This document shows positions 176 through 15,442 of a stretch of 64,000 nucleotides of DNA, piece by piece. The stretch spans positions 1,364,001-1,428,000 of the forward strand of contig NZ_CP109104.1 of assembly GCF_035917675.1 (NCBI RefSeq), in the 5' to 3' direction. The notes beneath the pieces were generated by a model. The model made no database searches. It was not told the origin of the DNA and saw only the letters and a list, made by a program, of their open reading frames with translations. Both the position numbers and the translations under genes were made by a program. Each line of letters begins with the position of its first letter. Within the stretch, counting starts at the first letter, position 1. The DNA comes from Streptomyces sp. NBC_01775 (GTDB taxonomy: Bacteria > Actinomycetota > Actinomycetes > Streptomycetales > Streptomycetaceae).

Positions 176-1057
176 TCATGCGGGCCGCTGAGGGCGTGGC
201 GGGAGCTGGAGTCCGGGTCCCGCGTCGGCGAAGAACGGGGGCGCGACGGCGCTGAGCCCGCCGTCGACGACCAGCGTCTGGCCGGTGACGTACTCCGACT
301 CGGGGGCGAGCAGGAAGGCGAGCACGTCGGCGATCTCCCGTACCGTGCCGGGGCGGCCCTTGGGGATGCGGTCGAGCACCGTCCGCATGTCGGGCATGCC
401 CTGGACGTTGTAGAAGAACTCCAGCGAGTCGGAGTCGATCAGGCCGCCGTTGACCGCGTTGACGTTGACGCCGTAGGGCGCGAACTCCAGTGCCATGTAG
501 CGCACCCAAGCCTCGATGGCCGCCTTCATGGCGCCGAGCGTGGAGTAGGTGGGGTAGGCGCGCACGGAGCCGTAGGAGGAGAGCGTGACGATCCTGCCGC
601 CCTGGTCCATGAGCTTGACCGCCTCTTGCGCGCCGAGCACGAAGGGGCGCAGGTTCATGGCGTAGGAGCGGTCGAGGTGGTGGGGTTTGAGATCGACGAT
701 GTTCTTGAAGGCGCTGGCCGCGGCGTTGGAGACGAACCAGTCCAGTCGCCCGCAGCGTCTGGCGACCTCGTCGAAGAGCGCGGTGACACCCTCGGGAGTC
801 TCGATATCCGCCTGTACGGCGAACCCGCTGCCGCCCAGCGCCTCGATGTCGGCGACGGTCTTCTCGGCGAGGTCGGCGTTCTTCTTGTAGTTGACGGCGA
901 CGGTCGCCCGGTCGCGGCGGGCCAGGGTCAAGGCCAGCTCCCTGCCGATGCCGCGCGAGGCCCCGGTGATCAGCGCGACCTTTCCGGTCCTGTTGCCACT
1001 GGTCTTCCCGGTGTCGCTCGTCTTCCCGGTGCCACTCGTCTTCCCGGTGTCACTCAT
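176..1057 (-). CDS. chcA: ChcA/FabL-type SDR enoyl reductase (putative 1-cyclohexenylcarbonyl-CoA reductase)
   Basis: A 293-residue short-chain dehydrogenase/reductase. A TGASRGIG nucleotide-binding turn lies near residues 32-39. An SNAA motif is followed by the enoyl-reductase arrangement Tyr-x6-Lys (YSTLGAMK) rather than the YxxxK of ordinary SDRs. The FabL/ChcA hallmarks NAVNGGxIDSD and VTGQTxxVDGG are also present. ChcA reduces 1-cyclohexenylcarbonyl-CoA to cyclohexanecarboxyl-CoA in ansatrienin-type CHC-CoA biosynthesis, and the company of an EPSPS-like/ligase fusion and an acyl-CoA dehydrogenase supports that role here. The ATG overlaps the stop of the upstream dehydrogenase (ATGA) and has GGAGGAG in front. 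The first ~22 residues are an odd TGKTS-repeat extension encoded by an 18-bp tandem repeat. FabL-type fatty-acid synthesis is the alternative role. Confidence 0.75.
   Translation of the reverse strand: MSDTGKTSGTGKTSDTGKTSGNRTGKVALITGASRGIGRELALTLARRDRATVAVNYKKNADLAEKTVADIEALGGSGFAVQADIETPEGVTALFDEVARRCGRLDWFVSNAAASAFKNIVDLKPHHLDRSYAMNLRPFVLGAQEAVKLMDQGGRIVTLSSYGSVRAYPTYSTLGAMKAAIEAWVRYMALEFAPYGVNVNAVNGGLIDSDSLEFFYNVQGMPDMRTVLDRIPKGRPGTVREIADVLAFLLAPESEYVTGQTLVVDGGLSAVAPPFFADAGPGLQLPPRPQRPA
1002..1055. repeat. Three 18-bp tandem repeats encoding the SDR N-terminal extension
   Basis: Units at 1002-1019, 1020-1037 and 1038-1055 (GTCTTCCCGGTGTCGCTC and variants) keep the reading frame and encode a repeated S-D/G-T-G-K-T peptide ahead of the Rossmann fold. 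The array ends inside the start-codon region, so copy number would change only the N-terminal tail. Confidence 0.85.
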
Positions 1058-2159
1058 CGGGCTCCTCCCCGGGCGGTCCGGCGCAGCAGTTCACGGAAGA
1101 CGACGGTCTTCTGGATCTCGTTGGTGCCCTCTTCGAAGCGCTGGGCGCGTGCGTCGCGGTAGACGCGCTCGATGGGGCTGGTCTTCCAGTAGCCGAGCCC
1201 GCCGTGCACCTGGAGCGCCTTGTCGGTGACGCGGGTGAGCATGGACACGGCGGTCATCTTGGCCATGGACCACAGCATGGAGGCGTCCTCGCCGCCCGCC
1301 TCGAAGGCGCGCGCCGCGTGCAGGACGAGCTGCTTGGCGGCCTCGATGTCGGCGGCGTTCTCGGCGAGCATGAACTGGACGGCCTGCCGCTCGCTGAGCT
1401 TCTTGCCGAAGGTGACGCGGCGTTCGGCGTAGTCGAGCGCGAGCTCCTGGGCGCGCTCGGCCAGCCCGACACAGCTCATTCCGACGGAGATGCGCGAGGG
1501 CGTCAGAAAGCCGCCGAGCGCCACGTCCAGGCCCTGGCCCTCCTTGCCGAGGCGGTTGGCCACGGGCACGGGGGCGCGCGAGAAGTGGAGGGAGGCGTGG
1601 TCGGTGCCGGTGACCCCCATGGTCCGGGAGGTGTCCTCGACCCGCACGCCCTCGGCGTCCCTGGGCACGAGCAGCGAGACGGTGCCCTCGTGCCCTGTGG
1701 TGCCCTCGACGCGGCGGCGAGCAGGTAGTAGTCGCAGCTGACACCGAAGGTGATCAGGTGCTTGTCGCCGGTGAGGTAGTAGGTGTCGCCTTCCCGGACG
1801 ACGGAGGCGGTGATGTCGGCGCCGGTGCCGTTGCCCGGCTCGGTCAGGGTGAAGGCGATCTTGATGTCGCCCTCGATGGCGGGCAGGACGAACTTCTTGC
1901 GCTGCTCCTCGGTGGCGAAGGGGTCCATGGCGCGCCAGATGCCGTTGACGACGTGCACGACCATCCGGAGGGAGCCGTGGGACCGGGAGAAGATCTCCAT
2001 GAGGCCCATCCACTGGGTGAACGAGAGCCCGTGGCCGCCGTATGCGCGCGGGGCCGCCATCCGCAGGAAGCCCCGCTCGCGCAGTTCGGCCCACAGTTGT
2101 CCGGGCACCTGCCCGGTGGCCTCGATCCGCCCGGCCCACTCCTCACCGGGCCCGGTCAC
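1054..2159 (-). pseudogene. Acyl-CoA dehydrogenase of the CHC-CoA cassette, frameshifted
   Basis: Joined across frames, this is a normal acyl-CoA dehydrogenase: an N-terminal helical part, the FTLTEPGNGTGADI core with the flavin-contacting strand, and a C-terminal domain with YAERRVTFGKKL, QVHGGLGYW and RDARAQRFEEGTNEIQ. The first half reads in one frame from a GTG at 2159. Near 1711-1719 (a GCGGCGGC run) the sequence slips, and the C-terminal half continues in another frame to 1054. A second problem may lie upstream: codons matching the usual YERLREQ-type N-terminus lie 5' of 2159 but are cut off by an in-frame stop. In CHC-CoA pathways this enzyme introduces a double bond in the ring. It sits between the ligase fusion and chcA, overlapping the latter by 4 nt. 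A sequencing error is the main alternative to a true pseudogene. Confidence 0.7.
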
Positions 2160-2220
2160 CCAGGAGATGACCTGCTCCCGCAGCCGCTCGTACTGTGCGG
2201 GCCGACACCTTGCTGCTCAC

Positions 2221-5196
2221 TCACTTGATGTTCTCCGTTTCGGTGCTGGAGCCGAGCCCGGCGGTGCTGGAGCCGAGCCCGGTGGTGCTGGAACCGAGCC
2301 CGGAGCCGAGCCCGGCGGTGCTGGGGTCCAGCGCCCGGTCTGTCTCCTGGCGCTGCGGGCGCAGGCCGCGTGCCCGCTCCCGCAGCCGGAACTTCTGGAT
2401 CTTTCCGGCCTCGTTGCGGGGCAGCGCTCCCGCGAGGATCTCCAGGCGCTCGGGCCAGTACTGCTTGGCCACCTGATGGGCGTCGAGATACTTCTGCATT
2501 TCCTCGAACTCCAGCCCGGCGCCGTCGTCTTCGAGAACGACGAAGGCGCAGGCGCGTTCACCGAGCCGCTCGTCCGGCATGGCGACGACGGCCACGTCGG
2601 CGACAGCCGGGTGGTCGTGCAGCAGCTGTTCGACCTCGGCGACGGGGATCTTCTCGCCGCCCCTGTTGATGACGTCCTTGACCCGTCCGGTGATCCGCAG
2701 GAAGCCGGCGGCGTCGATGGCCGCCAGGCAAGTCTCGGTGGAGCCGAAGGCGCCCAGCACGGTGGTGCCCAGCACCCGGCCGGCGCGCTCGGCCGGCCCG
2801 CGCGGCACGGTGGCGCCGGTGGCCACGAAGATCCGCAGGTCCTGGGGCGCCCGCTCGCCGTCCTCGACGGCGCGTAGGAGGTCCGTCAGGAAGGGTGTGG
2901 CGGCCTGGACGAAGGTCGCCCGGTGCTCGCGCAGCGACTTCAGTGCCAGGCCCGCGTGCCACTCGGCCTGCACGATCTGCGGGACGCCGAGGACGAGCGC
3001 GAGCCACATGCCGTAGAGGAAGCCGGTCTGGTGGGCGAGCGGTGAGGGGATCCAGACGGTGTCGGCGCCGGTGAGCCCGAGGTGGCGGATCTCCATGGAC
3101 GCGGCGCGGGTGAGCGCTTCGGAGCGCTGGAGGACGCCCTTGGGCTCGCCGGTGGTACCAGAGGTGAACAGGAGCTGGGTGAGGTCTTCAGAGCTGGGAA
3201 CGCGGGACGTGAGCGCTTCCTCGTCCAGGGGCGTGGCGGCGAGTGCGGACTCCCAGTCGTGCCACTGGATGCGGTCCGCGGTCCCGGCGGTGGCGGGCAC
3301 CTCGGCGGGCCCGCTCTCCCTGGGCAGGACCACGACGTGTTCGAGCCTGCCGGTGTCCCTCCCGGCGCTGTCCGCGAAGCCCTCGGCGGCCAGCGCGGCG
3401 ATCTCGGCGGCGTGCCGTCTGCCGCGGAACTCCCCGGGCAGCGGCAGCACTCGGGCGCCGGAGCGGCGCAGTATGAACGCCGTCTCGCGCTCGCGGAAGA
3501 TCGGCATGATGGGGCAGCACAGGGCCCGCACCCGCACGCAGGCCAGGGCGATGGCGGTGAACTCCGCGCGGTTGGGCAGTTGGAAGGCGACGGCCTCGCC
3601 GGGCTGGACCCCGAGCCGCAGCAACAGCGCGGCGATGTGCTCGCCGCGCTCGTGGAGCGCGGACCAGGTGAGCGAGGTGCTGCCGCAGGCCCGTACGTCG
3701 ACGAGCGCGGTGCCGTCGGGGTCGGACCCGGCACGGCGGGCGACCAGTTCGGGCAGCGTGTGGGTGGCGGCCTCGTCGGGCCGGGATACGTCCGGGGCCT
3801 GCCGAGCACGTCCGGTAGCGCGCTTGCCCTCGGCGGCTGTACGTCTGCCGCCCTCGGCGACCATGGGCCCGCCGCCTTCGGCGACCGCACCTCTGCCGCC
3901 CTCGACGGTCATGGGGATGCCGAGGGTGTTCATCGATTCCAGGAAGGCCGGGTAGGAGATCCGGTACGCGTGGGGGTAGGTGAGCGTGGTGCGGCCGGAG
4001 GCGCGGGAGGCGGCCACGGCCAGGGACATCAGCACCCGGTGGTCGTTGAAGGAGGACAGCCGGGTGCCGACGAGCCGCTTGGCCCCGCCGGCGACCCGCA
4101 ACGTCTCGCCCTCCAGCTCCAGTTCGCCACCCATGGAGTTGAGCTGGAGCATGGCGGCGGCGCGGTCGGACTCCTTGAGGCGGGTGTGGGCGACGTGCCG
4201 GAAGACGGTCTCGCCCTGCGCGAAGGTGCCGAGCGCGGCCAGCACCGGCAGCATGTCGGGCACCTCGCGGCAGTCGACCTCGACGCCCTTGAGGTCGATA
4301 CCGTCGTGCCGGATGCGGACGCCGCGCCCGGCCGGGTCCAGCTCCAGGGGGATGCCCATGGCCTGGACGAGGTCGAGGAAGTGCGCCTCGGGATGGTCGG
4401 CGGGGCTGCCGTGCAGCCTGTTCATGCCGCGCAGCAGCAGGTCGGAGGGGTGGAGCGCGGCGGCGGCGATCCCGAAGGCGGCCGAGCCGATGTCGGGCGG
4501 CATCGTCAGCTCGGCCGGGGTTGCCCGCTGGCCGCCCTCGGTCTCGAAGCGCCGCCAGTCCTCGGAGACGTCCACGGCCAGCCCGAACTGCCGCATCATG
4601 GCGACGGTCAGCTCCAGGTAGGGCCGTTCGTTCAGCTCGCCCTCGACCTCGATGACGGTGGACCCTGTCGCGAACGGCGCGAGCAGGATCAGCCCGGAGA
4701 TCCACTGTGAGAGAGTGCCGGCGATGCGGACGTGCCCGCCGGTGGGCCGCTCGGGCCGGACATGGACGGGGGGACAGCCGTCGGCCGACTCCAGTCCGAC
4801 ACCCATGCCGCGCAGCGCGTCCAGCAGGGGGCCGACGGGGCGGCGCTTGAAGTACTTCTGCCCCGTCACGGTCACCGGCCGCTCGGCGAGCGAGGCCAGC
4901 CCGATCATGAAGTACAAGGTGGTGCCCGAGCTGCCCGCGGAGACGGCGGAGCGGCGGGGCCGATAGGGGCCGCCGTGTACGACGAAGGAGTCGCCGTCAA
5001 CCTCGACGCGCGTGCCGAGCCCGCGCAGGAACCGCACCGTGTACTGCACATGCCGGGCGTCGGACAGGCCACGTACCACGCTGGTGCCCTCGGCGAGAGA
5101 GGCGAGGATCAGGGCGCGGTGCGCGTGGTACTTGGAGTTGGGGACGCGGACCTCACCGGTCAGCGGCCGGCGGGCCCCTTTGACAAGAAGGTGCAT
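2221..5196 (-). CDS. EPSP synthase-like / acyl-CoA ligase fusion (PlmJK/AnsJK type), ligase domain internally deleted
   Basis: A 991-residue two-domain protein. Residues ~1-430 have the EPSP-synthase fold: NSKYHAHRAL where AroA has GSKSxxxRAL, SGTT, RLKESDR and FNDHR. The Arg normally following the NxGT motif is replaced (SSGTTLYF), so it is not an ordinary AroA. A repetitive Gly/Glu/Arg linker joins a class-I adenylating ligase (~470-960) with LLFTSGTTGEPKG, GSTET, ITGRVKDVINRGGEKIP and a C-terminal GKIQKF lysine. This fused pair is characteristic of CHC-CoA biosynthesis from shikimate, where shikimate is dehydrated and activated as a CoA ester. GSTET is followed after only ~11 residues by GFLRITGR. 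The ~60-70 residues that normally lie between, including the YRTGD aspartate, are missing in frame, so ligase activity is doubtful. ATG at 5196 was chosen as the start of the AroA homology. Confidence 0.75.
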   Translation of the reverse strand: MHLLVKGARRPLTGEVRVPNSKYHAHRALILASLAEGTSVVRGLSDARHVQYTVRFLRGLGTRVEVDGDSFVVHGGPYRPRRSAVSAGSSGTTLYFMIGLASLAERPVTVTGQKYFKRRPVGPLLDALRGMGVGLESADGCPPVHVRPERPTGGHVRIAGTLSQWISGLILLAPFATGSTVIEVEGELNERPYLELTVAMMRQFGLAVDVSEDWRRFETEGGQRATPAELTMPPDIGSAAFGIAAAALHPSDLLLRGMNRLHGSPADHPEAHFLDLVQAMGIPLELDPAGRGVRIRHDGIDLKGVEVDCREVPDMLPVLAALGTFAQGETVFRHVAHTRLKESDRAAAMLQLNSMGGELELEGETLRVAGGAKRLVGTRLSSFNDHRVLMSLAVAASRASGRTTLTYPHAYRISYPAFLESMNTLGIPMTVEGGRGAVAEGGGPMVAEGGRRTAAEGKRATGRARQAPDVSRPDEAATHTLPELVARRAGSDPDGTALVDVRACGSTSLTWSALHERGEHIAALLLRLGVQPGEAVAFQLPNRAEFTAIALACVRVRALCCPIMPIFRERETAFILRRSGARVLPLPGEFRGRRHAAEIAALAAEGFADSAGRDTGRLEHVVVLPRESGPAEVPATAGTADRIQWHDWESALAATPLDEEALTSRVPSSEDLTQLLFTSGTTGEPKGVLQRSEALTRAASMEIRHLGLTGADTVWIPSPLAHQTGFLYGMWLALVLGVPQIVQAEWHAGLALKSLREHRATFVQAATPFLTDLLRAVEDGERAPQDLRIFVATGATVPRGPAERAGRVLGTTVLGAFGSTETCLAAIDAAGFLRITGRVKDVINRGGEKIPVAEVEQLLHDHPAVADVAVVAMPDERLGERACAFVVLEDDGAGLEFEEMQKYLDAHQVAKQYWPERLEILAGALPRNEAGKIQKFRLRERARGLRPQRQETDRALDPSTAGLGSGLGSSTTGLGSSTAGLGSSTETENIK
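2242..2324. repeat. 21-bp tandem repeats at the 3' end of the fusion gene
   Basis: Near-identical 21-bp units (GGTGCTGGAGCCGAGCCCGGC and variants) start at 2242, 2263 and 2284, followed by a partial fourth. In frame they encode a repeated S-T-A/T-G-L-G-S tail of the ligase, beyond its catalytic C-terminal domain. Confidence 0.85.
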
Positions 5197-6071: not shown

Positions 6072-6605
6072 GCCCCCATGGTGCCGGACGAGCGTGGAGC
6101 GGTGCGGCGGGGCTCCGGTGTACCCGGCCGCCGCGGGGGCACCGTCGGATTCTGCTGCTGGCCGTACAGGGATTCCAGTCCCCTGCCGTACCAGGACCCC
6201 AGCACGGCACCCGCGTGCTGTTCCATGGCCGAACGCAGGGGCGAGGGCGGCGCGTTGCAGAGCAGACACACGGCGCTCATCACGGTGACGACAGCCACCA
6301 GAGGGGCCCAGACGAGGAGTAACCCTCGGGTGCCGAGCACCGCCGGGACGGCCTGTCCCGCGTGCTCTTGATGCGCGTCAGCGCTGGTCGTTCGCCACAT
6401 GGCCCGATTCCTGGGCGGTGCGCCGACCTCCGACACCACCCGTCTCGCAAGATCACTCATTGCGGCGAATCAGCGGAGGCCGGCGCATGGCAGGCGACCT
6501 GCGGGGCCAGTCACGCGGGGACGGCGGAGGCGGGGAGGCCGGGTGGCACACGCCCACAGGCATACGCGAGGGCGCGCCCCCACACGACACGAGGGGGTAC
6601 GACGC
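6072..6605. other. Region upstream of the TOMM genes; weak candidate for a small membrane protein
   Basis: This 530-bp gap contains the TOMM operon promoter region but no certain gene. On the minus strand an open frame beginning at ATG 6400 encodes one hydrophobic helix (GLLLVWAPLVAVVTVMSAVC) and then a Pro/Gly/Ala-rich tail that overlaps the YchJ-like gene. An AGGAAT precedes the ATG at a long distance. I regard it as possible but not supported. Confidence 0.25.
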
Positions 6606-8591
6606 ATGCGGCCACGGTTGCGGGATCACGTGCTGTTCACGGAGCGGCCGGACGGCACCTACGTGCACGCCCCGCACGGCGGCACGCTCCTCCGGGGCCC
6701 CGGGCTGCACCCGTGGCTGACCCGCCTCGCGCCCTTTCTCACGGGCGAGCACACCCTCGCCGAGCTGGTCGGAGAGCTGCCGCCGGACCGCCGCGACATG
6801 GTCGAAAACCTGGTCGAGGAGCTCGCACGCGGCGGATACGTACGCGACCACACTCCCGGGCGCCCACCGCCCCGTCCCCGTCCTACGGCGGACGAACCGC
6901 ACGCGCCCGCCGAGCAGCTCGCCTTCCTCGGCTACACCGCCGACCACCCCGAAGACCGCCTCCAGCGCCTGCGCGAGGCCCGCATCGTGGTCTCCGGGAG
7001 CGCCCCGGCCCTGCCGCTGCTGACGGAAGTGATGCGCCTGGGCCTGCACTCGGGTTGGCGCTCGGTGCGAACGGTCGTGCGGGAAGGGGCGGGACCGCCG
7101 GGCGCTGCCGTGGCCGTGCCCACTGATACCTCGGGAGCCGCCACCGCACGGCCTGTCAGCGCATGGGCCGCCAGCGCAGGGGCTGTCACCGCAGAAAGCG
7201 ATCTGCTGATCTGGGTGACCGGCCGGGGCGAGGCTCCTCCGGAGGGGGGCCGGGGGGCGTGGTGTCCGGTCCGGCTCTCCGAGGCGGCGGCGTGGGTGGG
7301 GCCGGTGATGGCGGCGGAGGACCGTACGGCCGGTGACGTCGGGGAGGGCGACGGCGCGCTCGACGCCGGCGCCGTCTCCGTGGTGGCCGCTCAGGTGGTG
7401 CTGATGTGCACGCGGCAGCTGGCGGGCCTGGAGGGCGGCCCAGGCGACGAGGCATCCGGGCGCGGCCCGTCAGGGACCACAGCCGTCCCGTCAGGGACCA
7501 CAGCCGTGCGGGTGGACCTGCCGGAACTGACAACCTCGGAGCATCCGGTCACACACAGCACGCCGCAGCATCCGGTCATACACCGCGCAGCGCCCCGGCA
7601 TCCGGTCACATTCCGCGCGACGGCCCGGCATCCGGTCGCCCTCTGTCCCACAGCCGAGGCGGTCACGGCGTGGTGGGCCTCGCCCGCGCTCCCCATGTCC
7701 GAGCTGTGGAGCCGCGTCGCCCCCTTGGTGGACCCGTACACCGGCATCCTGCGCGAGGTCTCCGCCGGCTCCTGGCATCAGCACCCGTGGTGGACCTGCC
7801 GCGCCGTGCTCGAAGACGGCACGCTCATCGGCGCCCACGGCCCCACCCGCGAGTCGGCGCGCTCCCTGGCGGCTCTACGAGCCCTCGCCACGGCGAACTC
7901 CCCCGAAGGGCCCGTCTGGGGCTGGGATCTCACCGACGGCAGGCCCCGCCTGCTGACGGCCCACGAAGGCGCTGAAGCCCATACAGCCGCGGGGCTCAGC
8001 CCGGCAGAGGCGGCACTGGAAGGAGTGCGGGAACTGGCCGAGCGCGAGGTCGCCGCACGGCTGGCGCACCATCAATGCGCGCCGGTCGGCATCCCGGGTG
8101 GAGGGGAACGGGAGCTGCTACGGGCCACGGGGTGTGATGTGCGGGCCTTTGATCTGTCCGCTGTGCTGTGCGGGGTGCCCTCCTACGCCGTGACGCTCGA
8201 CGGTGCGGCCGTCGTGCTGCGTTGCGGGCAGGAGCCCGGCGCGACGCTCGCCGAGGCCCTCGGTCTGGCGCTGCTGGCCTGGCAGGCGGCGCACGACGGG
8301 GGCGCCGCCTACGCACCACGCCCGCCACGCCCCCTCCCCCAACTCCCCGACGCCGCACCCCCCTCCGGCCCCGTACCCCACTCCGGCGCCGCCCTTTCCG
8401 GGAACGAAGCCACCGCACGTCCTGTCGGCCTCCTCGAAGGGCTGACCACGGCGGGACTTCGCCCGGTGGCCGTTCCCCTGCCCGCCGGCGGCCCCTACGT
8501 GGCGAAGGTGATCCTCCTGAACGAAGACGAAGGTGAAGGTGAAGGAGAAGGACCGGCTCCCGTCGGTGCGGGACGGAGGGAGGAGGCGTGA
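6606..8591 (+). CDS. TOMM precursor leader-binding protein (ocin_ThiF-like, TbtF type)
   Basis: 661 residues from ATG 6606 (GAGGGGG before it). Residues ~8-85 resemble a RiPP recognition element: a winged-helix segment ending in LAELVGELPPDRRDM and GGYVRD. A degenerate E1/ThiF-like domain follows (LREARIVVSGSAPAL) without the ATP and adenylation residues. The C-terminal third (VDPYTGILREV to a LLAWQAAHDGG region) matches the tail of actinomycete ocin_ThiF-like partners of YcaO enzymes. Its expected role is to bind the precursor leader and present the core to the cyclodehydratase. The stop overlaps the next gene's GTG (GTGA), indicating translational coupling. A repeat-rich linker with HPVTxR units lies near residues 310-350, and an EGEGEGEG run near the C-terminus. 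Confidence 0.8.
   Translation: MRPRLRDHVLFTERPDGTYVHAPHGGTLLRGPGLHPWLTRLAPFLTGEHTLAELVGELPPDRRDMVENLVEELARGGYVRDHTPGRPPPRPRPTADEPHAPAEQLAFLGYTADHPEDRLQRLREARIVVSGSAPALPLLTEVMRLGLHSGWRSVRTVVREGAGPPGAAVAVPTDTSGAATARPVSAWAASAGAVTAESDLLIWVTGRGEAPPEGGRGAWCPVRLSEAAAWVGPVMAAEDRTAGDVGEGDGALDAGAVSVVAAQVVLMCTRQLAGLEGGPGDEASGRGPSGTTAVPSGTTAVRVDLPELTTSEHPVTHSTPQHPVIHRAAPRHPVTFRATARHPVALCPTAEAVTAWWASPALPMSELWSRVAPLVDPYTGILREVSAGSWHQHPWWTCRAVLEDGTLIGAHGPTRESARSLAALRALATANSPEGPVWGWDLTDGRPRLLTAHEGAEAHTAAGLSPAEAALEGVRELAEREVAARLAHHQCAPVGIPGGGERELLRATGCDVRAFDLSAVLCGVPSYAVTLDGAAVVLRCGQEPGATLAEALGLALLAWQAAHDGGAAYAPRPPRPLPQLPDAAPPSGPVPHSGAALSGNEATARPVGLLEGLTTAGLRPVAVPLPAGGPYVAKVILLNEDEGEGEGEGPAPVGAGRREEA
7543..7640. 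repeat. In-frame CATCCGGTC repeats in the leader-binding gene
   Basis: Four copies of CATCCGGTC spaced about 27-33 bp apart encode repeated HPV tripeptides in the linker between the ThiF-like and C-terminal parts. Just upstream (about 7470-7510) a PSGTTAV-encoding unit is duplicated. Confidence 0.7.
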
Positions 8592-10645
8592 CCGCGACCG
8601 GCGAGTCAGCCAGGGAGGGCGTTCTCCCGGCAACAGGCGGGGACTTCGAGGCGCCATCCAGCCTCCGCGTCCGCTCCGAGGTAGTACGGCTGTGCGGGGA
8701 CGTGCCACTCGGCCGCTGGGCGCTGGGGCGGCTCGGGGAAGCGCCTTGCCCCGGCGCGCACGCCCGTCGCTGGCTGGCGTGTGTGCGCGAGGACCTGTCA
8801 CGACCGGGTGAAATGGCCGACGCCTTCGCGGAGGCCGAGGCGGGCGCCACCGCTTCGGACGGCGTCTGGCTGTCCCTCGTGTGGGAGCCGGGTGCCCTGC
8901 TGGTGGGTCCCGTCGGGCAGCCGGGCCGGCCCGGCTGCCCCCGCTGCGCGCGGCTGCGGCGGCACCGCAACCTCCCCCGCCCCGAGGGGACGAGCGCGGG
9001 CCCGGGTCCCTACCCGCTCGCGCCTCCGGCCCCCGCCGTGGCGGCACTGACCGGCGCCCTCCTCGCCGAGGAGTTGGCGGCACTGGAGGGGTCGGCACTG
9101 GAGGAGCCCGCGCTGGAGGAGCCGGCGGCGCCGGCCACCCCGCGCGAGCGCCCCCGCACGCGGGGCGCCCTGCTGCGGATCGGCACCGAGCGGGGCGGTA
9201 TCACCCGGCATCCGGTGTTGCCCGACCCCGAGTGCCCCCACTGCGGACCGCTGCTGCCGGAAGCGGAGAGGGCCCCGGTCCTGGCGCCGGTCCCCCTCGG
9301 CACGCCGGGCCGGCTGCGCGAGCTGTCGGGCGAGGAGGTGGCCCGGGTGGCGGCCGGGTACGTGGACCCGTGCACCGGCGTGGTGCACGAGGTGGTGGAG
9401 CGGTCCGGAGGCGGGCGGCCGGTGGCGGTTGCGGTGCGTGATCCGGCGAGGGCAATGCCCGTCACGTATCACGGGTACGGCCACGGGGACGACTTCCGTG
9501 TGGCCTCCTCCGCCGCCGTCCTGGAGGCCCTGGAGCGGCTCGGCGGTCTGCCGACCCCGCACGGGCGGGAGCACAGGGGGCCGACCGCCTCCTATCGGGA
9601 GGTGGCGGGCAGCGCGGTGTATCCGCCGTCCCTCGGGCTGCATCCGGACGCGTCCTACGACCGGCCGGGCTTCCCGTATGTGCGCTGGTCGGCCTCCCGC
9701 CGCATCGACTGGACGTGGGGCCGCTCGCTCACCCTGGACCGCCCCGTACTGGTGCCCGCTTCGCTGGTGCACTACGCGGACCCGTCACCGGCCGGACCCC
9801 GCTTCGTGCAGGAGGTCTCCAACGGGTGTGCGCTGGGGGCGAGTACGACGGAGGCGGCGTTGCACGCGCTGTTGGAGGTGGCCGAGCGGGACGCGTTCCT
9901 GGCCGCCTGGTACGCGCGCCTGCCGCTGGCCCGTATCGACCTCGGCTCGGCGGCCGACCGCCGGATTCCGCTGCTGGCCGCCTGGGCGCGCGAGCGGGCC
10001 GGGTGCGAGCTGATGGCGTTCGACGCGACGCTGGAGCAGGGGATTCCGGCGGTGTGGGTGATGTCGGTCGCGGGTCCCGGGGCCGTGGGGCAGCCCGCGG
10101 TGGTGTGCGGGGCCGCGGCACGGCCGTGCGTGGAGGACGCGCTGGTGGCGGCCCTCGACGAGCTGGTGTGCACGCTGCTGGCACCGCCCGCGTTCGCCGT
10201 GGACCGGGCCGCAGCGATGCTGGAGGATCCCTACGCGGTGCGATCGATGGGCGACCACGAACTGCTGTACTCCCACCCCGTGGCCCGGGAGCGGCTCTCG
10301 TTCCTGCGGGTGGACGGGGAACGTGCGGCGCTGCCCGCACTGGCGGCGGCGCATCCGTGGCCGGGACACACCGATCTGGCGGCGCAGGTGGCCGAGTTGG
10401 TGCGCAGGTACGAGGCGGATGGCATGGAGGTGATCGTGGTGGACCAGACCCGCCCCGAGCACCGGGCCGGCGGGCTGCGCTGTGTGAAGGTGCTGGTGCC
10501 GGGGACGCTGCCGATGACGTTCGGCCACGCGGCGCGGCGTGTTGAGGGGCTCTCGCGGGTCCGGACGCTGCCCCGCACGCTCGGGCTGCGCGCGGACGCG
10601 CTGGCGGAGGAGGAGATCAACCCCCATCCGCACCCCTTCCCCTGA
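8588..10645 (+). CDS. YcaO-domain azoline cyclodehydratase with N-terminal zinc E1-like region
   Basis: 685 residues. The N-terminal part (~60-230) resembles the zinc-binding end of TOMM C proteins, with LLVGPVGQPGRPGCPRC near residue 117 and CPHC near 216. The YcaO domain (~255-685) carries the ATP/Mg signatures: SSAAVLEALER, TTEAALHALLEVAERDAF and a final acidic/basic block. It ends in PHPHPFP, the proline-rich C-terminus typical of azoline-forming YcaOs. The enzyme uses ATP to cyclodehydrate Cys/Ser/Thr to (ox)azolines in a RiPP core. Start GTG 8588 overlaps the upstream stop, so it should work with the leader-binding protein. The linker at ~165-180 contains repeated ALEE(P/G) units. It is convergent with the precursor gene across a strong hairpin. 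Confidence 0.85.
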   Translation: MTATGESAREGVLPATGGDFEAPSSLRVRSEVVRLCGDVPLGRWALGRLGEAPCPGAHARRWLACVREDLSRPGEMADAFAEAEAGATASDGVWLSLVWEPGALLVGPVGQPGRPGCPRCARLRRHRNLPRPEGTSAGPGPYPLAPPAPAVAALTGALLAEELAALEGSALEEPALEEPAAPATPRERPRTRGALLRIGTERGGITRHPVLPDPECPHCGPLLPEAERAPVLAPVPLGTPGRLRELSGEEVARVAAGYVDPCTGVVHEVVERSGGGRPVAVAVRDPARAMPVTYHGYGHGDDFRVASSAAVLEALERLGGLPTPHGREHRGPTASYREVAGSAVYPPSLGLHPDASYDRPGFPYVRWSASRRIDWTWGRSLTLDRPVLVPASLVHYADPSPAGPRFVQEVSNGCALGASTTEAALHALLEVAERDAFLAAWYARLPLARIDLGSAADRRIPLLAAWARERAGCELMAFDATLEQGIPAVWVMSVAGPGAVGQPAVVCGAAARPCVEDALVAALDELVCTLLAPPAFAVDRAAAMLEDPYAVRSMGDHELLYSHPVARERLSFLRVDGERAALPALAAAHPWPGHTDLAAQVAELVRRYEADGMEVIVVDQTRPEHRAGGLRCVKVLVPGTLPMTFGHAARRVEGLSRVRTLPRTLGLRADALAEEEINPHPHPFP

Positions 10646-10680
10646 CGGGCGCCCCCCTGGCGGGGTCCTGCCCGGACGGG

Positions 10681-10716
10681 CCGGGCCCCGGGGCGGTGAA
10701 CCGCCCCGGGGCCCGG
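10681..10716. terminator. Perfect 16-bp-stem bidirectional terminator between YcaO and precursor genes
   Basis: Arms 10681-10696 and 10701-10716 are exact complements (CCGGGCCCCGGGGCGG) around a TGAA tetraloop. It sits between the convergent YcaO gene (+) and precursor gene (-), so it can serve both. Confidence 0.8.
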
Positions 10717-10734
10717 TGGTGTGCGTGGCGCCGG

Positions 10735-10857
10735 TCAGGCGTCCGTGTCCGCCGCGTAGCAGCCGCAGCGCGGCACGGCCTCGCCCTCGTCGCCCTCGTC
10801 CTCGGCATGGATTTCGAGGTCGGCCAGCGCCGCGGCGAGCTGTGTGGAAGCACTCAT
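10735..10857 (-). CDS. TOMM/LAP precursor peptide, 40 residues, core ending RCGCYAADTDA
   Basis: ATG 10857 is preceded by AAGGGA. The first ~26 residues form an acidic, Leu/Ile-containing leader (LADLEIHAEDEGDEGE). The C-terminal part AVPRCGCYAADTDA holds Cys31, Cys33, Tyr34 and Thr38 as candidate modification sites. It lies directly downstream of the methyltransferase and convergent with the YcaO gene, in the position expected for the substrate of the flanking enzymes. Two Cys and one Thr allow at most three azol(in)es, an unusually small and tail-bearing core. The acidic AADTDA tail suggests trimming or an unmodified follower. The cleavage site cannot be read from the sequence; VP|R or GE|A are guesses. 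I do not recognise this precursor family. Confidence 0.75.
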   Translation of the reverse strand: MSASTQLAAALADLEIHAEDEGDEGEAVPRCGCYAADTDA

Positions 10858-10963
10858 GTCGAGTCCCTTCGAGCGGACGTATGGGGGTCGGCGCCGGTCC
10901 GCTTCCGGCACCGCTCCATGGCTTGCCTGACGGGTGCCCATCAAATCATGATATAAAGCTCCA

Positions 10964-10993
10964 TCACCTTTACGGGTGAACGCGCCCTGTCAA
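10964..10993 (-). promoter_or_regulatory. Candidate promoter and operator of the precursor gene
   Basis: On the minus strand TTGACA (10993-10988) overlaps the methyltransferase stop codon. It is followed by a TCACC-N6-GGTGA inverted repeat (10964-10979) containing TAAAGG, which could be the -10. An AT-rich TTTATATCATGATTTGATG stretch follows (10943-10960). This suggests separate, regulated transcription of the precursor. Confidence 0.45.
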
Positions 10994-11802
10994 ACCATCA
11001 GTTGCAGTGTCACGAGGTAGAAGACCCCGTCGCTCTCCACGCTCCGCACCCCCCACCCGGTCCCGTCCACCAGCCCGGTGAACTCCTCGGCCGAGCAGTA
11101 CAGGTAGTCGAACCACGGCGTCGACAACTCCCGGTAGCGGCTCCTGATGCGCAGGGTCCCCGGCAGCCGGCCCCGCGCGCGATTACGTTCCAGCCGGGGC
11201 CCGCGGAAGGCGGGGAACGCCTGATAGGGGTCCAGCCCCTCGTAGAGCAGTACGGCACCCGGGGCCGCGACCCCGGCGAGATTGCGCAGGGCTTCGGGTG
11301 CCAGCGCCGCGTTGCCGAGGACGCCCTGCCCCTCACCGGCGAGCACGACGGTGTCGAACGGGCCCACCCCGGCGGGCAGTTCGAGGATGCTGCCCAGGTA
11401 CGCGGCGACGCCCCTCTCGCGCGCCAGTTTCACGGCGCCGGGCGAGAATTCGACGCCGGTAACGGCGTCGACGGTCTCCTGGCCGGCCAGCCAGACGGCC
11501 CTGCTGCCCGCCCGGCAGGCGGCGTCCAGGACACGGCCCGTGGCACGTAGGCACACCTGCCGCTCCAACTCGGGCACCTCGGCCGGGTCGGGGAAGTAGA
11601 ACGTGGCCACGTCCCCGACGTGCACATCGCCGTCGTCGACCTCCATGACCTCGAATGTGCGGCCGGGCGCCGCGCCGGTGCGCCAGCAGTCGGCCACCGC
11701 CCGGCCGAAGGCGTCGCCGGTCGTGGGGTCGCCCGCGTGCGGGTCCTCGGCCGCCGCGGGCAGCAGCCAGCCGCGCGGGCGGGGTACGCCGAGGGCCGTC
11801 AC
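10990..11802 (-). CDS. SAM-dependent methyltransferase of the TOMM cluster
   Basis: 270 residues from GTG 11802, which overlaps the upstream oxidase stop (GTGA). A class-I methyltransferase fold is visible: a motif-I-like VLDAACRAGSRAV (a weak match to the usual GxGxG), an acidic motif II (VTGVEFSPGAVKLARERG) and the FDTVVLAGEGQG strand. Next comes a GAVLLYEGLDPYQAFP segment and a C-terminal region with aromatic residues (WFDYLYCSAEEFTGLV). Context says it modifies the TOMM peptide, for example N-terminal or side-chain methylation, but the target is unknown. The GxG motif is atypical, so binding of SAM is inferred from the overall pattern. Confidence 0.65.
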   Translation of the reverse strand: MTALGVPRPRGWLLPAAAEDPHAGDPTTGDAFGRAVADCWRTGAAPGRTFEVMEVDDGDVHVGDVATFYFPDPAEVPELERQVCLRATGRVLDAACRAGSRAVWLAGQETVDAVTGVEFSPGAVKLARERGVAAYLGSILELPAGVGPFDTVVLAGEGQGVLGNAALAPEALRNLAGVAAPGAVLLYEGLDPYQAFPAFRGPRLERNRARGRLPGTLRIRSRYRELSTPWFDYLYCSAEEFTGLVDGTGWGVRSVESDGVFYLVTLQLMV

Positions 11803-13280
11803 GGGCGGTGCCCTTCGGACGGGGACGCGGGCGCCGTGGCGGTGCCCCGGACGAGGGGCGGGGGCTCGGGCAGCGCCGGGGGCGGTGCGGGGAAGGGGAC
11901 GCGGAAGAGCCCGTGCGGATCGTAGTGCTCCCGTACGGCCGCGAGGCGCGGGTAGTTGGCGCCGTAGTAGGTACGCCGCCAGTCGGCACGGTCGGCCTCG
12001 GCGTAGTTCTGGTAGGCGTACCCGGAGGCCCAGGGGGCGACGAGGGTGTGCAGCCCGTCCAGTGCCGCGGTGGCGGCGCGCCGGTTGGGCCGCCCCTTGC
12101 CGGGCCTGAACTGCGAGAGCATGCCGAACAGATGGCTCCGGTGCACCATGGCGGTGGCGTGCTCGGGAACGCGGTTGTAGGCGCCGCCCAGGGCCTCGAA
12201 GTCGCAGTTGCGGCTCTCGCCGGGGCGCAGGTCGCGCTCCAGCACGGCGATCAGCTCGCGTGCGGTGCTGCCGGGCAGGGTGCGCGCGAAGAAGTCGTGG
12301 CGGCGCAGGATCAGCGGCAGCCTGCCCCGGGGCGAGCCGCCCCAGAAGCGCAGCGAGGCGCGCTGTCCGTGGCTCGCCGTCGTGTAGGTGTCCGGACCGC
12401 GCCCGACGGCGGCGACGAGCGCGGACAACTGGTGCTCCAGGTCGGCGCACTCCCCCAGCCAGGAGCCGCCGACGGCCGCGGGCGGGAGGCCGTCCCAGGT
12501 CTCGCCCGCGGTGATACCGGCCATGCTGGAGAGCCGGTCGGGCGCCCCGGGTGCCCACTCCTGCCAGGCGGTGAGCACTCTGGCGCGGCACTCCGCGGGC
12601 CAGCCGAGCAGGAAATCGGTGACGGGCTCCTCGGCTCGGGTGCGGAAGCTGAGCGAGGCGACAACACCGGGGAAGAGCGGGCCGCCGCCGCGCAGCGCCC
12701 AGAACAGCCCGGGGTGGCGCTCGGTGTCGCACGTGACGGTGTGCCCGTCGGCGAGGACGACGCGGGCCGAGGTGAGGCTGTCGAGGGCGTAACCGTAGCG
12801 GCGTCCGGTGGTGCCCATGCCGCCGCCGAGGGTGAGCCCGGTGACGCCGACGGTGGGGCACAGCCCGGTGGGTACGGCCCTGTCGTGGGCGTCGAGCGCC
12901 TCGGCGAACGCCCCGGTGCGCAGCCCCGCGCCGCAGTGCACGCGCGCGCCGGGGACGTCCACCTCGACGTCGTTCAGCGGGGAGACGTCGAGGACCAGTC
13001 CCGGGCCCGTGGAGAAGCCGGCGAAGCAGTGGCCGCCCGCGCGGGTGTGGACACGGGCGCCGTACCTGCGGGCGAAACGGAGCGACTCGGCGATGTCGTG
13101 CTCGGAGGCGCATCGCACCACGGCGGCGGGGCGTGCCGCGTCGTGACGGGCGTCGGCCGTGCGGCGCGCGGCGCCGTATCCGCTCTCCTCGGGGAGCAGC
13201 AACTCCCCCGCCAGGCCGTGCCGCAGAGCCGTCCAGGAGGCGGCCGGGGGCACAGCTGACAACGTTCCGTATCCGTTCAC
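11799..13280 (-). CDS. BBE-type FAD-dependent oxidase with bicovalent-flavin residues
   Basis: 493 residues, a berberine-bridge-enzyme-like PCMH/VAO-family oxidase. His84 (RAGGHCF) and Cys141 (GLCPTVGVTG) are at the positions used for 8-alpha-histidyl and 6-S-cysteinyl FAD attachment. GLTLGGGMG follows, and the C-terminal BBE motif (YQNYAEAD, then YYGANYPRLAAVREHYDPHGLFR-like sequence) is complete. Such enzymes oxidise hydroxyl, amine or C-H groups using O2. It heads the oxidase-methyltransferase-precursor array and is divergent from the GNAT gene. The cluster has no SagB-like FMN azoline dehydrogenase, so this enzyme is the best candidate to oxidise azolines to azoles, or to act on the Tyr; that is inference. 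No secretion signal is seen. Confidence 0.8.
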   Translation of the reverse strand: MNGYGTLSAVPPAASWTALRHGLAGELLLPEESGYGAARRTADARHDAARPAAVVRCASEHDIAESLRFARRYGARVHTRAGGHCFAGFSTGPGLVLDVSPLNDVEVDVPGARVHCGAGLRTGAFAEALDAHDRAVPTGLCPTVGVTGLTLGGGMGTTGRRYGYALDSLTSARVVLADGHTVTCDTERHPGLFWALRGGGPLFPGVVASLSFRTRAEEPVTDFLLGWPAECRARVLTAWQEWAPGAPDRLSSMAGITAGETWDGLPPAAVGGSWLGECADLEHQLSALVAAVGRGPDTYTTASHGQRASLRFWGGSPRGRLPLILRRHDFFARTLPGSTARELIAVLERDLRPGESRNCDFEALGGAYNRVPEHATAMVHRSHLFGMLSQFRPGKGRPNRRAATAALDGLHTLVAPWASGYAYQNYAEADRADWRRTYYGANYPRLAAVREHYDPHGLFRVPFPAPPPALPEPPPLVRGTATAPASPSEGHRP

Positions 13281-13338
13281 CTACTCAAAGTATCCACTTC
13301 TCTGCGAGCCAACACCGGGGCGACTAAGGTCGCTTAAC
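13281..13338. promoter_or_regulatory. Divergent promoter region, oxidase / GNAT
   Basis: This 58-bp gap of lower GC content separates two divergent TOMM genes. GCGAC-TAAG-GTCGC (13319-13332) is a small perfect dyad that includes the AAGG ribosome-binding site of the GNAT gene, so it could occlude translation or bind a regulator. Confidence 0.35.
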
Positions 13339-14193
13339 GTGACCAGAAAGCGACTCACGGTAATTGAACCGGCACGGCTCGTACACCTGCTGTCCACCAG
13401 CTCCTGCGAGGTCGCGCTCCCGTCCGAGGCGCCCCGGCTCGCGGCGCAGGTCTCCTACGAGCCGCTGTGGCCCCGCTTCCTGTTCGCCGCGCCCAGCATG
13501 CGGCTCTACCGTCCGCTCGGCGAACTGTGGCCCTATTCCCAACTCCTGCTCGCCGAGCCGGGGTCCGGGCGGCTGCTGGGGTGGCTGGATACGGCACCCG
13601 TCTTCACGGACGGCGGCGCGGACGGGCTGCCGGGCATCGCAAGGGGGCTGCCGGGCGGCGGACGGGGGCTGCCGGGCGGCTGGGACGATCTGATGCGGCG
13701 TGCCGTCGAGGGGCTGCGTGCGGGGCACGCCCCGGACACGCTGGCCATGATGTCGCTGAGCCTGCTGCCCGCCGCGCGCGGCATCGGTCTGGGCGCCGCC
13801 GCCATCGCGCTCGCGCGCGCCCTCGCCTCCCTGCTGGAGCTGCGGGCCGTTCTCGCACCGGTGCGGCCCACGCTCAAGGCCGCCTGCCCGCAGGTGCCGA
13901 TGGGCGAGTACATGCGCCGGGTGCGGACCGACGGACTCCCGGCCGACCCCTGGCTGCGCGCCCATGTGCGGGCCGGGGGCCGGGTGGCGGGCGTCGCGAC
14001 GGCCTCCACGGTGATGGAGGCGCCGCTGGAGGACTGGGCCGCGTGGGGGGCCTCGCTTCCCCCGGCGGGCGACGGGACGATCGAGGGCGCGCTCTCCCCG
14101 CTGGAGTTGCTGCCCGACGGCAGAACGGCCCGCTACACCGAGCCCAACGTGTGGGTGATCCACTCCGCGGAACGCTTCCCCGCACACCCTTGA
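13339..14193 (+). CDS. GNAT-family N-acyltransferase of the TOMM cluster
   Basis: 284 residues from GTG 13339 with AAGG upstream. The acetyl-CoA-binding motif A is visible as LLPAARGIGLGAAAIALARAL (R/Q-x-x-G-x-G/A type). It is followed by the PTLKAACP, PWLRAHVRAGGRVAG and YTEPNVWVIH segments common in larger actinomycete GNAT proteins. A LPGG-rich insert (about residues 94-115) is encoded by short repeats. It is the last gene before the Tn3-like element and is divergent from the oxidase. Goadsporin-type LAP clusters also carry an N-acetyltransferase, so N-terminal acylation of the TOMM product or self-protection is plausible. Substrate and acyl donor are not visible. Confidence 0.65.
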   Translation: MTRKRLTVIEPARLVHLLSTSSCEVALPSEAPRLAAQVSYEPLWPRFLFAAPSMRLYRPLGELWPYSQLLLAEPGSGRLLGWLDTAPVFTDGGADGLPGIARGLPGGGRGLPGGWDDLMRRAVEGLRAGHAPDTLAMMSLSLLPAARGIGLGAAAIALARALASLLELRAVLAPVRPTLKAACPQVPMGEYMRRVRTDGLPADPWLRAHVRAGGRVAGVATASTVMEAPLEDWAAWGASLPPAGDGTIEGALSPLELLPDGRTARYTEPNVWVIHSAERFPAHP

Positions 14194-14464: not shown

Positions 14465-15442
14465 GTGCCCACCGTCGTACGACTGCCCGCCGGGAAGGCG
14501 CTGACCGTACGGATCGCCGCAGACACGTTCCTCGACTCGCTCGACAACCCGAACACCCTCCGCAGCTACAGCACCGGGATCGGCAAGACCGCCGAACGCC
14601 TCGGCGAGAACCGGCCGCTCGCGACGATCGCGGATGACGAGATCGGCGAGGCCCTGGAACAGTTGTGGGGCAGCGCGGCGGTCAACACCTGGAACGCCCG
14701 TCGCGCGGCGGTGCTTTCCTGGCTGGGCTGGTGCGCCGAACGCGGCTACGACGGCCCTGTGGTCCCGGCCTGGACGAAGCGGCTGCCCCCACCGGACTCC
14801 GATACCCCGGCCAGGTCAAAGATGGCGATCGACCGGCTGATCGCCCGCCGTGACGTCCATCTTCGGGAGAAGACTCTGTGGCGGATGCTGTATGAGACGT
14901 GTGCGCGGGCGGAGGAGGTCCTCGGCGTCAACATTGAGGAGCTGGACCTGGCCGGCCGCCGAGCCCCGGTGAAGCCGAAGGGCGCCCGGCCTCGCACCCG
15001 GCGCCGGGGCGCCCCGCGCGAGGACTTCGTGCTGGAGACTGTGTTCTGGGACGCTGGCGCCGCCCGTCTTCTGCCCCGCCTGATCAAGGGCCGCACCCGC
15101 GCGCCGGTGTTCGTCACCCACCGCAAGCCGGGCCCCGGCAAGGTCGTCAGGCCGCGCGACGTCTGCCCGGACACCGGACTCGCGCGGCTGTCGTACGGGC
15201 AGGCTCGCGCCATGCTCGACGCTCATACGGCACTCGCCGGCGTGCAGGGCGCGGGCTGGGACCTGCACGAATGGCGCCACTCCGGGCTCACTCATCTCGG
15301 CGAGGCCGGAGCCAGCCTGCCGATGCTTATGGCCAAGTCACGGCACAAGAAGCCGGAGAACGTACGGCGCTATTTCCACCCCTCGGCGGAGGCAATCGCC
15401 GAGGTCACCAGCTTGCTTGCCCCTGGAGACAGTCGGCGCTGA
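14465..15442 (+). CDS. Tyrosine recombinase (TnpI-like resolvase/integrase)
   Basis: 325 residues from GTG 14465 (AGGGGGAAGC upstream). The N-terminal ~100 residues form a core-binding/SAM-like domain. The catalytic domain shows Arg I in [13 protein letters not shown], the box [13 protein letters not shown] with His-x-x-Arg, and the last block [14 protein letters not shown] with His and the nucleophilic Tyr. All five expected catalytic positions appear present, so it should be active. It lies about 160 bp inside the left inverted repeat, directly after three TTATCTGTG motifs. This suggests it resolves cointegrates of the transposon as TnpI does, rather than integrating a phage. It is convergent with the DUF1330 gene. 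Confidence 0.8.

Follow-up and report, generated by a model that had tools for sequence, protein, structure and literature searches.

A rare Streptomyces gene cluster for a probable azol(in)e peptide, in which a berberine-bridge-type oxidase accompanies the precursor and YcaO genes

We analysed a 64,000-nt stretch (hereafter the window; C1:1364001-1428000) of the 9.3-Mb, two-contig genome of a Streptomyces sp. and found that positions 6606-14193 carry a member of a rare, real gene cluster family, in which a berberine-bridge-type (BBE-like) FAD oxidase accompanies a short precursor peptide and a YcaO cyclodehydratase. The product probably contains azol(in)e rings, as the gene content predicts a TOMM/LAP-class pathway. 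We give an even chance to the reading in which the D protein makes thiazolines at both cysteines of the core and the BBE serves this core as its own oxidase, aromatisation of the thiazolines being the likeliest reaction. All six cluster genes (F, D, precursor, methyltransferase, BBE and GNAT-like) were confirmed, with the following features in window coordinates:

6606-8591, plus strand: F protein (Ocin-ThiF-like, leader-binding/scaffold), start ATG at 6606, TIGR03693
8588-10645, plus strand: D protein, fused E1-like/YcaO cyclodehydratase, TIGR03604 and TIGR03882, PHPHPFP tail
10735-10857, minus strand: precursor peptide of 40 aa, leader MSASTQLAAALADLE..., one core
10756-10776, minus strand: core motif VPRCGCY, precursor residues 28-34
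10906-10924, minus strand: conserved element AAGCCATnsAGCGGTRCCG, upstream of the precursor in 3/3 loci
10990-11802, minus strand: class I methyltransferase, accessory, Methyltransf_25, not found in G097
11799-13280, minus strand: BBE-like FAD oxidase with His84 and Cys141, PF01565 and PF08031
13339-14193, plus strand: GNAT-like acyltransferase, divergent from the BBE gene, weak Pfam GNAT match

The F and D genes overlap by 4 nt on the plus strand, and the BBE and methyltransferase genes overlap by 4 nt on the minus strand, with 132 nt between the methyltransferase stop and the precursor start on that same strand. This layout bears out the initial annotation, which had placed the oxidase in one operon with the methyltransferase, upstream of the precursor. 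No transporter or protease was found among the six cluster genes. The domain scan outside the cluster covered eight window ORFs. Three belong to an EPSPS-ligase run, three more encode an integrase, an MFS protein and a Pyr_redox protein, and the other two had no match. The phage-type integrase gene (14465-15442) borders the cluster on its right side. The EPSPS-ligase run (176-5196, minus strand) comprises a fused EPSP synthase/AMP-ligase gene with acyl-CoA dehydrogenase and short-chain dehydrogenase genes, a set that we take to resemble the cyclohexanecarboxyl-CoA pathway; the fusion gene also adjoins the S. iconiensis cluster (86 and 89% identity, two pieces).

The cluster type and its D and F proteins are of known kinds. 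The D protein scored 308 bits against TIGR03604 (cut-off 219), which places it in the SagD-family YcaO proteins, and 81 bits against TIGR03882 (cut-off 37), and its PDB matches include TruD (E 1.5e-26) and LynD (E 6.2e-25). It ends in INPHPHPFP, and a PHPFP ending occurs in 111 of the 120 D proteins among the matches listed (best 120 of 219), the window protein included. The F protein matched TIGR03693 (Ocin-ThiF-like) over an N-terminal stretch only (E 3.8e-9, 35 bits, cut-off 562); an Ocin-ThiF-like F beside a fused C-D protein is the make-up of an F-dependent TOMM, with F far below the full-length cut-off. In the C-terminal half of F, a stretch at window 7914-8246 (residues 506-616, counted in the frame starting at 6399) showed YcaO similarity of 24.3 bits, below the cut-off of 25.7, as if a decayed YcaO domain may lie inside. 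The same genome also carries a third SagD-type YcaO gene (G000:C1:7165081).

To characterise the precursor, we searched a protein collection with the window and S. iconiensis precursors and obtained six proteins at E≤1, both queries included, all at E 1.5e-10 or lower; adding the precursor of genome G097 gave a family of seven. These seven linked precursors share the leader M-S-x4-L-A-x-A-L-x-D-L and a heterocyclisable core. The same leader and core recur in five other protein clusters and at locus L020, so the window precursor is not a chance reading frame. The family holds 12 copies of VPRC-x(1,2)-C-[YH], of which 10 end in Tyr and 2 in His, with one copy in four precursors, two in one and three in two; one copy has two residues between the cysteines (CGTC). 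Within the core, invariance is confined to V, P, R and the two Cys, and all 24 precursor cysteines fall within these motifs. Because both Cys are invariant and none occurs outside the core, Cys-derived rings would be a constant oxidisable feature of the family. One precursor (P0006) has an N-terminal extension as annotated, and its C-terminal end resembles a third unit that has decayed and lacks Cys. The assignment to a TOMM/LAP locus, which had been based on the F protein, the YcaO D protein and the 40-aa precursor, was supported. Upstream of the precursor, the 19-nt element was the longest block conserved in an otherwise patchily similar region; its pattern was derived from these same three loci, so that the window match is by construction, and no second copy was found in the window at ≤3 mismatches. 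It is possibly an operator or leader RNA.

The BBE scored above cut-off against both FAD_binding_4 (99 bits) and the BBE domain (45.5 bits), and together with its His and Cys attachment residues this places it in the BBE family. The two covalent-flavin residues named by the initial annotation, His84 and Cys141, were present and identical in 9/9 aligned BBEs, and the protein is predicted to hold FAD bicovalently through them. Its nearest solved structure is EncM (E 1.3e-51), and it scored 133 bits against NF041226 (cut-off 800). PDB entries 9P1O and 9P1P are named in the available part of a paper on the Clz9/Tcz9 cannabinoid cyclases. A structure model of the BBE built with nine sequences had a mean pLDDT of 48.6 and was not used, and at that value we make no active-site argument.

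We then compared the locus with its relatives. In S. iconiensis (L003), all six genes were found in the same order and orientation at 39-79% identity (F 39%, D 71%, precursor 50%, methyltransferase 78%, BBE 79%, GNAT-like 69%). The other relative, G097, is an assembly of 1140 contigs in which the local view comprises two contigs of 3.0 and 4.0 kb (C702 and C822); here F (43%), D (65%), precursor, BBE (70%) and GNAT-like (67%) genes are kept, the precursor directly follows the BBE, and the first bases of C822, immediately ahead of the precursor, read as PFP followed by a stop, resembling the D C-terminus. Its core is a single CACH, with His in place of Tyr, and from residue 31 onwards its BBE is identical to that of S. 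boncukensis (P0011). Repeated genome sampling returned no locus beyond those of the window, S. iconiensis and G097 (the last also drawn as G622). The precursor occurred in 2/392, 2/392 and 1/393 Streptomyces genomes and in 1/395 genomes of 86 genera (G476 match left out); these samples overlap, and the source genome is counted in each. The G476 match (E 9e-4) was rejected, as no match to a window cluster protein lay within 19 kb of it.

At the protein level, seven D proteins of at least 64% identity grouped as a single clade (support 1.0, 56-member tree). For six of these a BBE was found, either linked through the contig or within the same species. The S. albiaxialis D protein (P0019) lies inside the clade, yet no BBE was found for it; the S. 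axinellae D protein was not among the 120 of 219 listed and was perhaps clustered with P0014. The BBE search, which scored just the 7996 candidates sharing most words, found seven BBEs in the collection at E≤1e-110 (51-90% identity). Five of the seven are linked to a precursor and/or D protein: P0007, P0008, P0009 and P0010 indirectly, through contigs of equal length, and P0011 by linkage read in DNA (L020/L066, precursor adjoining). The remaining two, P0012 and P0013, are linked to neither. The S. iconiensis BBE was missing from the protein search though present in S. iconiensis DNA. Among plasmids, the BBE matched 290 records, none of which reached 60% identity. The tie of the BBE to precursor and YcaO holds across relatives, in 3/3 DNA loci and for six of the seven D proteins of the clade. 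Of YcaO, BBE, GNAT and methyltransferase, whose co-occurrence without SagB had been proposed as a check, the first three occur together with no local SagB seen in 3/3 DNA loci, and the methyltransferase was not found in G097.

The methyltransferase scored 30.3 bits against Methyltransf_25 (cut-off 27). No match to it was found in the G097 genome at E 1e-10, a query that does recover the gene in the window's genome and relatives of 39-44% identity in four other genomes, which weakens the view of this enzyme as a constant part of the cluster. Those four relatives were set aside, as their loci of about 19 kb hold no F, D or BBE match. Its best match is XhnM1, which its fold also matches; a search of the open-access literature for xinhaicarcin returned nothing. 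In motif I (SAM loop), two glycines are lost (DAACRAG) in the window and S. iconiensis proteins alike, possibly reflecting altered cofactor binding or a non-methylating role. The GNAT-like protein scored 12.2 bits against Pfam GNAT, below the cut-off of 20.7, and its R-G-x-G-L-G motif is kept in the window and both relatives (3/3).

To assess whether a conventional azoline dehydrogenase serves the cluster, we searched the whole genome with TIGR03605 (SagB, E≤0.001). The results showed no match in the window, as the initial annotation had stated for the cluster; the two matches in the genome belong to one 569-aa frame at C1:8.09 Mb, 6.7 Mb away, which is immediately preceded by a D gene with its F gene (L018). 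A SagB gene just outside the cluster in relatives, which would speak against the reading first proposed, was not seen on the precursor-bearing S. iconiensis contig (C48) or on the two G097 contigs. In a near control, SagB directly follows a D gene in L004, L005, L006 and L007; this control is not uniform, because the L004 D copy with the best match to the query lacks a SagB in the 1.8 kb left of the locus. A broader control used 30 Streptomyces YcaO loci, those returned out of 64 matching genomes (1.5-kb flanks, SagB at E≤1e-4, three queries): a SagB match lay within 1.5 kb of the YcaO domain in 5, and the cluster BBE matched in 1, the window's own, with no match within that distance in the other 29. 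SagB absence is therefore ordinary, whereas a precursor-tied BBE is not. The premise that azole LAPs normally encode SagB is weakened both by the 5/30 loci and by a TOMM survey (PMC4603692), whose available part puts the share of clusters encoding the FMN dehydrogenase at a "sizeable percentage". Since SagB-like proteins occur elsewhere in all three genomes, the azolines could be oxidised in trans by such an enzyme, here that of the F-D-SagB run, leaving the BBE another role. S. iconiensis would suit this arrangement, with five SagB matches outside contig C48, two of which exceed the cut-off. G097, however, offers only a weak partial match of 24.9 bits, in a frame cut by the contig end and beside another cluster's YcaO gene, and in the TclI-TclN case, according to the available part of the source, the SagB enzyme works with its own cluster's scaffold (PMC10634744). 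We regard oxidation in trans as rather improbable.

A SagB neighbour is lacking in 25/30 loci, so the azolines might also stay reduced, and the BBE could then tailor the core elsewhere: at the Tyr or His after the second Cys, at the invariant Pro or Arg, or by a cross-link or cyclisation. Alcohol, amine and amide oxidation are the commonest reactions of the BBE-like family. A review of such oxidases has, in its available part, sections on alcohol and on amine/amide oxidation (PMC11375781). The residue after CxC is Tyr or His in 12/12 cores, and V, P and R are invariant; judged from the motif, Pro and Arg, as invariant as Cys, could be the BBE target instead. Oxidation of the core Tyr, which had been suggested at the outset, is weakened by G097, whose only core has His for Tyr and where the BBE is kept at 70% identity, making Tyr the weaker target. 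Taken as a whole, we regard tailoring at such sites as somewhat unlikely. A very improbable reading would make the modified CxC[YH] cores metal-binding peptides, with the YcaO protein activating another residue or forming a thioamide and the BBE acting on a Cys side chain. Paired Cys beside Tyr or His may resemble a metal site; against this, D lies over the TIGR03604 cut-off and ends in PHPFP, and D with an F partner is the heterocycloanthracin/thiopeptide arrangement in the available parts of two sources (PMC4603692, PMC10634744).

For the preferred reading, in which the BBE is the core oxidase, we infer the following pathway. F would capture the precursor leader and present the precursor to the fused YcaO protein D, which would convert both Cys of every VPRC-x-C-[Y/H] core into thiazolines by cyclodehydration. 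The BBE would then most likely dehydrogenate these to thiazoles, its bicovalent FAD passing the electrons to O2 to form H2O2. The scheme assumes that a protease from outside the cluster cuts beside the invariant VPR; the GNAT may acylate the N-terminus released in this way, and the methyltransferase may be an optional decoration step, possibly on Tyr. With cores single or in tandems of two or three, a precursor could yield several short bis-heterocyclic peptides. The most specific form of this proposal, that a bicovalent-FAD BBE unrelated to SagB/McbC is an azoline-to-azole oxidase and gives a second, O2-driven thiazole route, with one to three bis-thiazole peptides per precursor from VPRC-x-C-[Y/H] cores, we hold tentatively, at somewhat under even chances. 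We know of no BBE-like enzyme that oxidises azolines. The available text of a 2024 review of BBE-like oxidases contains no word starting "thiazol", "azoline" or "ribosom" (PMC11375781), and among the papers listed by a search of the open-access literature, which leaves most subscription papers outside, neither titles nor abstract starts showed a BBE-like oxidase of azolines or a YcaO cluster with a BBE. One paper matching both query terms (PMC12402327) was set aside, its available part concerning fibrostatins.

The cluster resembles heterocycloanthracin/micrococcin-type systems (HcaF-HcaD-HcaB; TclI-TclJ-TclN) in pairing an Ocin-ThiF-like F with a fused E1-YcaO protein and a leader-bearing precursor, but differs in having a BBE-like FAD oxidase and no FMN B-type dehydrogenase, very short and sometimes tandem VPRCxC[YH] cores, and six genes without transporter or protease. 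Neither the dehydratase nor the pyridine-forming families expected of a thiopeptide cluster were matched by the six ORFs at 6606-14193. The plantazolicin core contains Arg-Cys-x-Cys, and a very short precursor, this core element and a methyltransferase are shared with our cluster, in which, unlike plantazolicin, Arg is followed by just two Cys and Tyr/His; the plantazolicin Arg-Thz N-methyltransferase was not among the eight sequence matches of the methyltransferase at E≤0.1. Goadsporin, whose host is a Streptomyces, is an azole RiPP of this genus. It carries six azoles, two dehydroalanines and an N-terminal acetyl group according to the available part of its source (PMC5303826); the acetylation is a possible precedent for the cluster GNAT, whereas the dehydroalanines set goadsporin apart, no dehydratase match being present among the six genes. 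The BBE belongs to the same flavoprotein family as EncM, 6-hydroxy-D-nicotine oxidase and BagK/FevA1, and differs from these in its linkage to a ribosomal precursor and YcaO and in having both the His and Cys attachment residues.

Should the BBE aromatise the rings, there would be a second enzymatic source of peptide azoles, and azole prediction based on SagB would fail for such clusters. To our knowledge, no earlier BBE-like oxidase acts on a ribosomal peptide, and the cluster BBE would be the first. Even if it acts on another residue, the cluster defines a compact family in which five genes are constant and the peptides are short, some of them with tandem cores.
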